Source: Smithellaceae bacterium (GTDB lineage Bacteria > Desulfobacterota > Syntrophia > Syntrophales > Smithellaceae). From it: DNA of 45,311 nucleotides. The position numbers and the translations under genes are program-made. Numbering within the stretch: position 1 is the stretch's first letter; each line of letters opens with the position of its first letter. The stretch spans positions 1 through 45,311 of the forward strand of contig JAQUVQ010000019.1 in NCBI GenBank assembly GCA_028693285.1. Reading direction: 5' to 3'. The notes under the pieces were generated by a model. The model was not told where the DNA came from. It did not search any database and saw only the letters and a program-made list of their open reading frames with translations. Shown here piece by piece: positions 3,293 through 7,783 of this stretch.

Positions 3293-3320
3293 CACTATCC
3301 ACCATACACCATCCACTATT
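3293..3320. repeat. Imperfect 14-bp tandem low-complexity repeat at the clpB stop
   Basis: Two imperfect 14-bp units (ACTATCCACCATAC and ACCATCCACTATTT) sit between DUF1844 and clpB. The CTA within the second unit (3316-3318) is read on the minus strand as the TAG stop of clpB. Function unknown. Confidence 0.55.
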
Positions 3321-5901
3321 TCTTGCTGAACGTAATCTCCCCTTTGGAAACGCCGATGACGATGTGGTCGCCTTCGGAGAATTTACCGGCCAGCAGGTCC
3401 ATGGCCAGCGGATCCAGAACAAGTTTCTGCAGCGCCCGCTTGAGCGGTCTCGCCCCGTAAACCGGGCTGTAGCCCTCTTCGGCTATATATTTTTTCGCCG
3501 CTTCTGTCAATTCGATGGAGAGCTTGCGCTCCGCGAGCCGCCTGCCGATCAGGCCGAGCTGGATGCCGACGATCCGGTGAATGTCCTCGAGCGTCAGGCC
3601 GTGGAACATGATGATGTCGTCGATGCGGTTTAGAAACTCCGGTTTAAAGGTCGCGCGCAGGGCTTCCATCGAACGGTTTTTCTTTTCTTCTTCCTCCAGC
3701 GACGGATCCTGAATCCACCCGCTTCCGACGTTGGAGGTCATGATCACGACCGTGTTTTTGAAATCCACCGTGCGGCCGTGCCCGTCGGTAAGCCTTCCGT
3801 CATCCAGAATCTGCAGGAGAATATTGAACACATCCGGATGCGCCTTTTCGATTTCGTCAAACAGCAGGACGCTGTAAGGCTTGCGCCGGACGGCTTCGGT
3901 GAGGTAGCCGCCTTCATCATAGCCCACGTAGCCGGGCGGAGCGCCGATGAGCCGCGCCACCGCGTGTTTTTCCATGTATTCCGACATGTCGATGCGGATC
4001 ATCGCCTGCTCGTTGTCGAACATGAACTCCGCCAGCGCCCGCGCAAGTTCCGTCTTGCCAACGCCGGTCGGCCCCAGGAAGATGAACGACCCGATCGGAC
4101 GGTTCGGATCCTGCAGGCCGGAGCGCGCGCGCCGAAGCGCCGCCGAGACAGCCCCGATGCCGTCGTCCTGACCGATCACGCGCATTTGAAGCCGCTCGTC
4201 CATGTGGATCAGCTTCTGCACGTCGCTCTCCATCATGCGGGAAAGCGGAATCCCCGTCCAGTTGGAAACGACTTCGGCCACGTCCTCGGCGTCCACTTCC
4301 TCTTTGAGCATCCGGTTGTTTTTCTGTACGTCCGAAAGCTTTGCCTGATCGGTTTCCAGCGCTTTGGAAAGCTCGACCATTTTGCCGTAGCGGATTTCGG
4401 CCGCACGCGCCAGGTTGCCTTCGCGCTGCGCGCCGGCTTCCTCCGTTTTCAGCGCTTCCATTTGGCTTTTGATCTGCTGAATCTTTTTAATGATGTCCTT
4501 TTCCGACGACCAGTGCATCTTCATCCGGTCCATCTCGCTTTGGAGTCCGGCCAGTTCCTTTTCAATCTTGTCGCGCCGCTCCAGCGCCGCCTTGTCCGTA
4601 TCCTTTTTGAGCGACTGCTTTTCGATTTCGAGCTGAATGATTCGGCGGTCGATCGCGTCGATTTCGGACGGCATCGAATCCAGTTCGATCCGCAGCCGGG
4701 ACGCGGCTTCGTCGATCAGGTCCACCGCCTTGTCCGGCAGGAACCGGTCGGCGATATAGCGGTGAGACAGGGTAGCGGCGGCCACAATCGCCGAATCCTT
4801 GATTCGCACGCCGTGATGCACTTCGTAGCGCTCCTTGAGGCCGCGCAGAATGGCGATGGTATCCTCCACCGTCGGCTCCTTGACTAAAACCGGCTGAAAG
4901 CGCCGCTCGAGCGCCGCGTCCTTTTCGATGTACTTGCGGTATTCATTGAGCGTCGTTGCGCCGACGCAGCGCAGCTCGCCGCGCGCCAGGGCGGGTTTGA
5001 GCATGTTGGAGGCGTCCATCGATCCTTCCGAGGCTCCCGCGCCGACCACCGTATGGATTTCATCGATAAAAAGGATGATCTCGCCTTCGGCGCTGATGAC
5101 TTCCTTCAAAACCGCCTTGAGCCTTTCTTCAAATTCACCGCGGTATTTCGCGCCCGCGATCAAAGCGCCGACATCCAGACCGATCACGCGCTTGCTTTTC
5201 AGATTTTCCGGCACGTCGCCGTTGACGATGCGCTGGGCGAGGCCTTCCACAATGGCCGTCTTGCCGACGCCCGGCTCTCCGATCAAGACCGGATTATTCT
5301 TGGTGCGCCTTGAGAGCACCTGCATGATGCGGCGGATTTCCTCATCCCGGCCGATGACCGGGTCAAACTTTCCCGTACGGGCCAGCTCATTGAAGTCTTT
5401 GGCGTAGCGCTCCAGGGCCTGATACTTGCCTTCCGGATTGGGGTCCGTCACGCGCTGATTGCCGCGGATGTCCACGAGCACCTTTAAGATATTGTCTTTC
5501 GTGACGCCGTTTTGCCGCAGAATTTTACCCGTCTTCCCTTCCTTTTCCTCGGACATGGCCACCAGCACATGCTCGGCGCTGACATATTCGTCCTTGAGCT
5601 GGAGCGCGCCGGTCATTGCCTTATCCAACAGCTTGTTGAGCCTGCCGCCCAGGTAAGCCTGACCGGCGCCCGCGCCTTCGACGCCGGGCTGCTTTTTCAG
5701 ATCAATATGGAGTTCCTGCTCCACCTTTCGGGGAGAAACGTTTAATTTATTCAGAATGGCGCCGGCAATCCCGTCTTGCTGCTGCAGCAGCGAAGCGAGC
5801 AGATGCTCCGGCTCGATGGCCTGGTGGCCGAGCGTTCCGGCCAGCGTCTGCGCATCCTGAAGCGCCTCCTGCACTTTCAAGGTAAATTTATCAAATCTCA
5901 T
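3316..5901 (-). CDS. clpB: ATP-dependent disaggregase ClpB
   Basis: The 861-residue Hsp100 chaperone works with DnaK to resolubilise aggregated proteins in the cytoplasm. Domains in order: Clp N domain (about 1-145, starting [14 protein letters not shown]), AAA+ module 1 with Walker A GEPGVGKT and Walker [10 protein letters not shown], the long coiled-coil M domain (about 410-530, rich in Glu, Lys and Leu), and AAA+ module 2 with Walker [12 protein letters not shown] and Walker [13 protein letters not shown]. The M domain marks ClpB rather than ClpA or ClpC. The ATG at 5901 is chosen because MRFDKFT is the conserved start and GAGGAAG precedes it; an ATG 11 codons upstream lacks support. It is 13 bp after the diadenylate cyclase gene, and no sigma-32 promoter was seen in that gap. 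Confidence 0.97.
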
Positions 5902-5914
5902 GGTCTTCCTCTTT

Positions 5915-6793
5915 CTACTCCACGGGTTTTTCAATCGTCACGAAAAGCTTTCCGTTTTTAAAGACGCTGACGTTTCCCGAAGACTGGGAGATCACCATCG
6001 CCACCGCGCGGGTCACATTGGTGATGCCGGCCGCTGCGATATGGCGGCTCCCCAGGCCCGAAGGGAAATCTTTGCTGTCCAGCGCCGCGTTCAAATGGCG
6101 TCCCGCCGTAACGATCACGCCGTCTGTCTTGATCACGAACGCGCCGTCGATGGCGGAAAGCTCCTTGATGGTTTCCTCCAGCTCCGGATTCAGAATGTTG
6201 CGCTGCTCCTCGGAATATCCCTTGAACGGATTGATGATCATCTGCCGGGAAAGCTGCATCACTTTCTCATCGTCCCCCAGAACGAAAATCGTTCCGACCT
6301 TCCGGTTTTCGCGCCCCTGGGCCGCCAGTTCGCAGGCGATGTTCAAAACGGCGTTGAAAACCTCGGGCCGCACGGCTTCCACGACATCGCTGATGTCGTC
6401 GGATGTCAGGATTTCGAACTCGCGGCCGACGTCAATGAAAAAGATGCTGTCCGCATACCCGAATTTCGGCACGCCGGACAGGCAGACGACCTTGTCGCCC
6501 TTTTTAAACAGGCCGGAGACGATGCCCTTGGCAATGGCGATCTTGATTTTTCCGACGCGGGTCAGATTGACGTCGGGAAGCTCCAGTTTCTTTGCCGCCG
6601 GCAGCAGCTTCTCCGGCAGCTCCTCGTCCTCCCGCAGAACGAGAACGAACCGGACTGATTTTCTCTCTTCCTCGGAAAGCTCGGCCAGTTCGCTTCGGAC
6701 ATCCACGCAGACCAGAACGCAGCCGGCCTTGACGCCTTTCGCGAGCTTGATGGCCGTTTCGATCATCGTCTTGTTCACGGATTTCATATTCAT
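5915..6793 (-). CDS. DisA_N-type diadenylate cyclase domain protein
   Basis: This 292-residue soluble protein has an N-terminal region of unknown function (about 1-140) and a C-terminal DAC (DisA_N) domain, which in this family condenses two ATP into c-di-AMP. In the domain the DGA motif is clear ([11 protein letters not shown]), followed by [14 protein letters not shown] and [17 protein letters not shown]. The usual Arg-His-Arg motif reads Arg-His-Ile here, so catalytic activity is not assured. There is no transmembrane segment as in CdaA and no HhH DNA-binding tail as in DisA, so it is neither. It sits immediately upstream of clpB on the same strand and is divergent from rpoH across about 144 bp; co-transcription with clpB is likely. 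Confidence 0.8.
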
Positions 6794-6872
6794 TCCCGGT
6801 TCTTTTTTGAGCCTAAAATAAGCATTTGAAGCCAGCCTGTCAAGCCGCGGACGGCCGCCGGGAAATATTTGC

Positions 6873-6901
6873 TTGACCGCTCATTCACTCTTCGGTATCT
6901 A
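6873..6901 (+). promoter_or_regulatory. Sigma-70-type promoter of rpoH
   Basis: TTGACC (6873-6878), a 17-bp spacer, then TATCTA (6896-6901). The predicted start near 6908 lies about 30 nt before the TTG start codon, with GAGGAGG at 6923-6929 between. The promoter position argues against the longer upstream reading frame. Confidence 0.65.
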
Positions 6902-6937
6902 CCAGATCAGGTTTTTTGGACTGAGGAGGCCCGCCCG

Positions 6938-7783
6938 TTGAAGTTACCCGTCGTCACCGGCACTCTGGACTTATATATCGCGGAGATCAACCGCTTTCCC
7001 CTTTTGACCGCCGAGGAAGAATTCAAACTGGCCATGCGGCTGAAAAAGGACAACGACATGGAAGCGGCGGAAAAACTGATCGTTTCCAATTTGCGGTTTG
7101 TCGTGAAAATCGCCCATGAATACCGGAGTTACGGCTTCAAGCTGTCCGATCTCGTTCAGGAAGGCAACATCGGACTGATTCACGCCGTCAAGAAATTCGA
7201 CCCGGAGAAAGGCTACCGCCTGATTTCCTACGCGGTCTGGTGGATCCGCGCCTATATTCAGAACTATTTGATCAAATCCTGGAGCCTCGTCAAGATCGGA
7301 ACCACGCAGGCGCAGCGCAAGCTTTTCTTCAAACTGAGCCAGGCCCGGAAACAGCTGGAAACGATCTCGAAGAAGAATCCCGAATTCAGCGAGATCGCCG
7401 ACTCGCTGGGCGTCAAGGGCTCCGAGGTCGCGGAAATGGATCTGCGGATGGGCGCGCGCGACCTGTCACTCAACGAACTCATCAACGACGACGGCGAAAC
7501 GTCCCACCTGGATTTTCTGACCCATGACGGGGACAACCAGGAAGTCTCCCTGATCAAGCATGAAGAGAGAAGCCTGGTCAAACGGCACATCGCCGGCGCC
7601 CTGGCCAGGCTAAACGAAAGGGAAAGCTACATCATTCAGCACCGCGTCATGGCCGATGATCCGCTGACCCTGCAGGAAATCGGCGACAAATACAACATCA
7701 CCCGCGAGCGCGCCCGCCAGATTGAAAAGCAGGCGCTCAAAAAGGTTCAGCTGGCCCTGCCCTATCTCAAAGAAGACCTGTAA
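6938..7783 (+). CDS. rpoH: RNA polymerase sigma-32 factor (heat-shock sigma)
   Basis: The 281-residue sigma-70 family protein directs RNA polymerase to heat-shock promoters. Region 1.2/2 (LYIAEINRFPLLTAEEE, then LVQEGNIGLIHAVKKFDPEKG and ISYAVWWIRAYIQNYL) and region 4 (LTLQEIGDKYNITRERARQIE) are clear. The RpoH box is QRKLFFKL, which separates it from RpoD and RpoS. I start it at TTG 6938, which has GAGGAGG 8 bp upstream. The open frame continues back to 6869, but that part overlaps the promoter and is not RpoH-like. It is divergent from the diadenylate cyclase-clpB pair and ends 4 bp before the convergent DUF218 gene. Confidence 0.93.
   Translation: MKLPVVTGTLDLYIAEINRFPLLTAEEEFKLAMRLKKDNDMEAAEKLIVSNLRFVVKIAHEYRSYGFKLSDLVQEGNIGLIHAVKKFDPEKGYRLISYAVWWIRAYIQNYLIKSWSLVKIGTTQAQRKLFFKLSQARKQLETISKKNPEFSEIADSLGVKGSEVAEMDLRMGARDLSLNELINDDGETSHLDFLTHDGDNQEVSLIKHEERSLVKRHIAGALARLNERESYIIQHRVMADDPLTLQEIGDKYNITRERARQIEKQALKKVQLALPYLKEDL

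Follow-up and report, generated by a model that had tools for sequence, protein, structure and literature searches.

The window, a stretch of 45,311 nucleotides from a Smithellaceae bacterium, carries a gene for a protein with a diadenylate cyclase (DAC) domain, called dacZ here, which is followed directly by clpB and faces a divergent rpoH (Table 1). The ATG of clpB (MRFDKFT) lies at 5901, and 13 bp separate the gene from the dacZ stop codon. Both neighbours score above their family cut-offs (ClpB, 1361 bits against 1232 for TIGR03346; RpoH, 336.5 bits against 323 for TIGR02392), and the arrangement given in the initial annotation, directly upstream of clpB and divergent from rpoH, stands. 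dacZ and clpB are probably co-transcribed. The true start of dacZ may be a second ATG, at 6787, since 25 of 55 database matches begin at residue 3. Many RpoH homologues align only from residue 15–24, so that rpoH probably starts somewhere from 6869 to about 6938. The closest named relatives come from Smithella and from further members of Syntrophaceae or Smithellaceae (55 loci altogether), from which the order is taken to be Syntrophales.

Table 1. Features of the dacZ locus, with positions in the window
Feature	Position	Strand	Basis
dacZ-type diadenylate cyclase gene, 292 aa	5915..6793	(-)	ORF, ATG start
DacZ_P domain (PF21755), residues 7-130	6404..6775	(-)	Pfam 50.2 bits; fold match 5ws9_A
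DAC catalytic domain (PF02457), residues 157-283	5945..6325	(-)	Pfam 83.2 bits; fold match 8c4n_B
DGA motif, residues 216-218	6140..6148	(-)	alignment A1
Arg-His-Ile, residues 250-252, at RHR site	6038..6046	(-)	alignment A1
SQSS, residues 269-272, at CdaA SEET metal-site position	5978..5989	(-)	sequence comparison
sigma70-like promoter element upstream of dacZ	6815..6843	(-)	TTGACA (6843-6838), 17 bp, TATTTT (6820-6815)
clpB, directly downstream of dacZ	3316..5901	(-)	TIGR03346
rpoH (sigma-32 family), divergent from dacZ	6869..7783	(+)	TIGR02392

The DAC domain (Pfam cut-off 27 bits) contains the DGA motif and the Arg-His-Ile that had been read in it initially. The N-terminus had been described as matching neither DisA, CdaA nor CdaS architecture; this is correct, but the region is not unassigned, as it matches DacZ_P (a 'probable sensor domain', cut-off 27.4 bits). 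A structural model was predicted with AlphaFold from 22 aligned sequences, the window's own and 21 from other loci (pLDDT 84.8, pTM 0.86). Residues 1–128 of the model resemble the pyruvate kinase C-terminal domain (5ws9_A, Z 15.1, rmsd 2.3 over 120 residues), and residues 141–288 a DAC domain (8c4n_B, CdaA-AMP, Z 14.5, rmsd 2.6 over 129 residues). The pyruvate kinase fold of the N-domain rests on this comparison and not on a profile match to PDB sequences, where pyruvate kinase appeared at E about 0.01–0.02 only. The DacZ_P match and this fold rule out an orphan N-terminal domain.

For the same reason we assign the product, from sequence and model, to the DacZ/CdaZ class of cyclases, as a bacterial relative of archaeal DacZ: it has both structural marks of the class, a DAC domain and an N-domain of the DacZ_P/pyruvate kinase C-terminal type. 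According to the accessible part of PMC6741144, the archaeal DacZ (Haloferax volcanii) and DacY/CdaZ (CdaZ of Methanocaldococcus jannaschii) classes have this same combination, and close bacterial homologues with the same predicted fold are already stated there to exist; the operon partner of H. volcanii DacZ is mscS2, in contrast to clpB downstream here. The top NCBIfam match was likewise DacZ (NF041371, residues 65–288), at 132.8 bits, which is below the cut-off of 430 for the haloarchaeal equivalog. The control set of 14 genomes, which included three DAC-bearing archaea, gave no PF21755 match. FBP was set aside as a ligand of the N-domain because the FBP phosphate loop of pyruvate kinase is not evident in the DacZ alignment.

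The other cyclase classes share the DAC domain and differ around it. In DisA the DAC domain is N-terminal and DNA-binding domains follow at the C-terminus; here the match to the DisA model is weak (27.9 bits, cut-off 201) and covers the DAC part only, and this part is C-terminal, with nine of the 292 residues after it. As for CdaA, DGA and Arg-His are kept, whereas its N-terminal transmembrane domain CdaA_N gave no Pfam match at an E of 1 or below. CdaA motifs are given as GxRHRxA and SEET in the accessible text of PMC12974146, in place of which we read GSRHIAA and SQSS; the SEET-to-SQSS change had escaped the initial description of the active site.

That description had taken Arg-His-Ile for an altered catalytic motif, a view that the comparison of relatives does not uphold. 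DGA and the Arg and His of Arg-His-Ile are invariant in alignment A1, and the third residue varies outside Syntrophales. Our survey of 149 Syntrophales genomes gave 97 DacZ_P matches in 96 of them, with the motif readable in 95 and RHI in 94, the single exception, RHR, being a paralogue (L030). For DacZ of the same phylum outside the order, the 34 best-scoring sequences were used and 28 weaker DacZ-like matches (E 1.8e-71 to 9.8e-27) left out; among the 33 readable ones the third residue was R in 16, M in 8, V in 4, L in 2, and A, N and H in one each. More distant DacZ have Y (Auribacterota) or A (Phycisphaerales, Myxococcales), so that the position ranges over I, V, M, L, R, H, N, A and Y in related proteins. 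On a tree of 41 rows RHI forms a single clade (support 100/99) and RHR needs three changes. The CdaA of the same genome reads GLRHT, i.e. Arg-His-Thr, and RHT was found in 27 of the 29 CdaA motifs recovered from 30 Syntrophales loci. Given this variability in DacZ and the usual RHT in CdaA of the order, Ile was rejected as a sign of lost activity; judged by sequence, it is the normal residue of the order's DacZ family, and the variation argues that the third Arg of RHR may be dispensable in the DacZ class.

The SEET position counts against activity. S-E/Q-S-S/T replaces SEET in all 94 motifs read among the 97 Syntrophales loci, paralogue L030 included, whereas DacZ of family f28 has SEET in 11 of 12 cases (the twelfth, L138, is unreadable) and keeps RHR too. 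With two departures from the CdaA active-site motifs, RHI and SQSS, DacZ could have lost catalysis and serve as a sensor of ATP or c-di-AMP, or as a partner protein. SEET is said to coordinate the metal in CdaA (PMC12974146). Whole-motif RHR-to-AAA mutants of DisA-, CdaS- and CdaM-type enzymes are inactive (PMC3328451, PMC13022847, PMC4568413), which lends weight to this view. As described there, the AAA mutants replace all three residues together and do not isolate the third. In Leptospira CdaA, D172A and R203A (the first Arg) abolish activity (PMC12974146); DacZ keeps both of these residues, the Asp in DGA and the Arg that opens RHR. The invariance of DGA, Arg and His speaks against a loss of catalysis, as does the frequency of a residue other than Arg at the third position in the order's CdaA.

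A separate cyclase in the same genome could be taken as a further argument for lost catalysis, as it could supply all the c-di-AMP. It is a CdaA-YbbR fusion in one frame of 504 aa (CdaA_N, DAC, YbbR; L001:1075-2586, plus strand, contig C95), and open frames of similar length occur in many CdaA of the order. Three genomes lacking DacZ_P (G024, G038, G059) gave additional weak DAC-like matches besides CdaA. Among 60 Syntrophales genomes sampled, 23 have DacZ and CdaA, 14 DacZ only, 19 CdaA without DacZ and 4 neither, PF02457 finding no DAC domain in these four. Each of the 14 DacZ-only genomes gave exactly one DAC match, with RHI in all of them, and some relatives thus seem to rely on the DacZ-type enzyme alone. 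Moreover, dN/dS was 0.07–0.09 in five dacZ pairs, which places the gene, by this measure, under purifying selection.

Riboswitches of the c-di-AMP class (RF00379) were found in 11 of the 60 genomes: 3 of the 23 with both cyclases, 2 of the 14 with DacZ only, 5 of the 19 with CdaA without DacZ and 1 of the 4 with neither. In the two DacZ-only cases (G003 and G023, both 100% complete), where the RHI DacZ is the sole DAC found, the riboswitches (95.1 and 92.6 bits) lie ahead of Kup potassium transporters, and the PgpH phosphodiesterase is also present. The riboswitch argument for activity rests on these two genomes, which belong to the same genus; the remaining 12 genomes with DacZ only gave no RF00379 match. 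Together with the 14 genomes in which DacZ is the sole DAC found, it makes a loss of catalysis improbable. The same two genomes weigh against a product other than c-di-AMP: active-site drift might have led to a different cyclic or linear dinucleotide, a reading to which we give very little credence. One more genome (G027, 98% complete) has a riboswitch (locus L202) and PgpH, yet PF02457 finds no DAC in it; either a DAC gene was missed or there is another source of c-di-AMP, so that an overlooked DAC is possible in the surveyed genomes.

PgpH was found in 28 of the 37 DacZ-bearing genomes and in 8 of the 23 others (Fisher p 0.003, kinship ignored); with CdaA there is no association (23 of 42 against 13 of 18, p 0.26, kinship again ignored). 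For 8 of the 11 riboswitches the downstream gene was scanned, and all eight precede a transporter: five Kup, one KdpA and two of amino-acid-permease type, which resemble KimA. The genome of the window itself has a c-di-AMP riboswitch (C64:5494-5631, locus L182, 83.8 bits) followed by a gene for a KimA-like transporter of amino-acid-permease type, as well as PgpH and six TrkA_C matches.

The adjacency to clpB, for which a survey in Syntrophales had been suggested, proved to be conserved: clpB directly follows dacZ in 89 of the 97 DacZ loci from the 149 genomes. The eight misses are five contig ends, one paralogue and two real cases (G018 and G056, of one family). In 67 of the 89 loci no more than 21 bp separate the two genes, among DacZ sequences as little as 55% identical, and rpoH is divergent upstream of dacZ in 86 of the 97, at 129 to 2767 bp. 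The paralogue (L030, in G123), the second DacZ of its genome, is 43% identical and groups on the tree with DacZ of family f112; horizontal transfer is possible. Its contig ends 374 bases past the gene, and clpB adjacency can be judged there only in part. A literature search, outside which most subscription papers lay, returned nothing on dacZ-clpB adjacency, nor on c-di-AMP with Syntrophus.

In the named loci with room for the genes in question, dacZ-clpB was found in 48 of 48, a DUF1844 gene after clpB in 37 of 37 and ispE in 36 of 37; rpoH was divergent in 36 of 39, and gene order breaks down only beyond it (mutS side, 9 of 29). The clpB-DUF1844-ispE block is as conserved as dacZ-clpB, and the tie to proteotoxic stress is for this reason unproven. 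For comparison, 18 of the 30 clpB-like loci in 21 Syntrophales genomes without DacZ_P were inspected; in 11 of them rpoH is divergent beside clpB with no cyclase between.

A promoter-like element (TTGACA, 16–17 bp, a -10-like box) was found in 92 of 96 dacZ upstream regions against 1.6% of shuffles; some genomes are present twice in this set, which has 70 distinct rows. A like element is present in 14 of 15 clpB upstream regions of dacZ-less genomes, and the exact string TTAATTTAC in 6 of the 96 and 3 of the 15, respectively. As the element precedes clpB in relatives without dacZ, these sequences are most simply explained if dacZ lies downstream of the promoter of clpB and ahead of clpB itself. 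A search with E. coli-type sigma-32 hexamers gave no prominent site upstream of dacZ or of dacZ-less clpB. The shuffle test, which covered the 15 dacZ-less clpB upstream regions, gave best scores reached by 1 of 100 shuffles (L221), by 2 (L230) and by at least 33 in the other 13.

We propose that the gene, which lies in a conserved rpoH/dacZ-clpB locus, encodes a probably active bacterial DacZ of an ordinary kind that has seldom been described: a diadenylate cyclase of the DacZ/CdaZ class with a small-metabolite-sensing N-domain, coupled to potassium and forming one unit with clpB (probability about 0.7). From what the sequences show, namely the domains and their predicted fold, the purifying selection, the gene order, the promoter-like element and the presence of riboswitch and PgpH, we infer enzymatic activity, co-transcription, sensing, potassium coupling and any coupling to protein-folding stress. 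Two DAC domains would pair head to head and convert two ATP to c-di-AMP, a likely activity, and the pyruvate-kinase-C-like N-domain would most likely sense a small metabolite and set this activity. c-di-AMP would then adjust potassium import via the riboswitches ahead of potassium-transporter genes, with RCK_C proteins as a possible further route, and would be removed by PgpH. If dacZ and clpB form one transcription unit, under a promoter of the kind preceding clpB alone in dacZ-less relatives, the cyclase level would follow that of the disaggregase.

Knowledge of c-di-AMP comes mainly from Gram-positive bacteria and a number of archaea (see also PMC13022847). Here the genome of an anaerobic lineage has DacZ, CdaA-YbbR, PgpH and a riboswitch before a transporter, which make up most of a c-di-AMP circuit, and the conserved dacZ-clpB pair could link ion balance to protein disaggregation. 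A bolder version, which we regard as tentative and rather doubtful, has dacZ captured between the clpB promoter and clpB in Syntrophales, with c-di-AMP rising along with the disaggregase. Protein-folding stress would in that case directly set potassium import, and through it the ionic strength of the cytoplasm, and this control would be an integral branch of a heat-shock locus.

The loci outside the order bear on this coupling. None of the 34 best-scoring DacZ loci (4.5 to 15 kb each) contains a clpB-like match; in the inspection of neighbours the gene was placed in 26 of the 34. In family f28, DacZ adjoins housekeeping genes, lying beside ychF and hppA and near pth-, rplY- and prs-like genes (these three named by eye), some of which also lie in the window. 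Such neighbours, together with the equal conservation of DUF1844 and ispE after clpB, suit another account, in which DacZ works as a normal active cyclase in potassium and osmotic control and clpB is a neighbour it merely inherited, sharing a transcript without a role in folding stress. The short gaps retained at low DacZ identity, the like promoter element ahead of clpB in dacZ-less relatives and the proximity of DacZ to a divergent rpoH in family f34 tell against it, and we put its chances at even. The link to proteotoxic stress raised in the initial annotation thus keeps its adjacency and gains an apparently shared promoter-like element, but it is a positional inference, weakened by the equally conserved clpB-DUF1844-ispE block and by the missing clpB outside the order.

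The f34 arrangement is a second one of rpoH with DacZ, and rpoH proximity thus recurs outside the order: rpoH is divergent from a patatin-like phospholipase gene and DacZ in L119, L122 and L124, and in the last two of these loci a gene for a dihydrouridine synthase (dus) comes next. We also observed an open frame of 866 aa (L142:5017-7614, plus strand) with DacZ at its C-terminus and a long N-terminal stretch that has no Pfam match at E 0.0001; this long frame may be a chance read-through.
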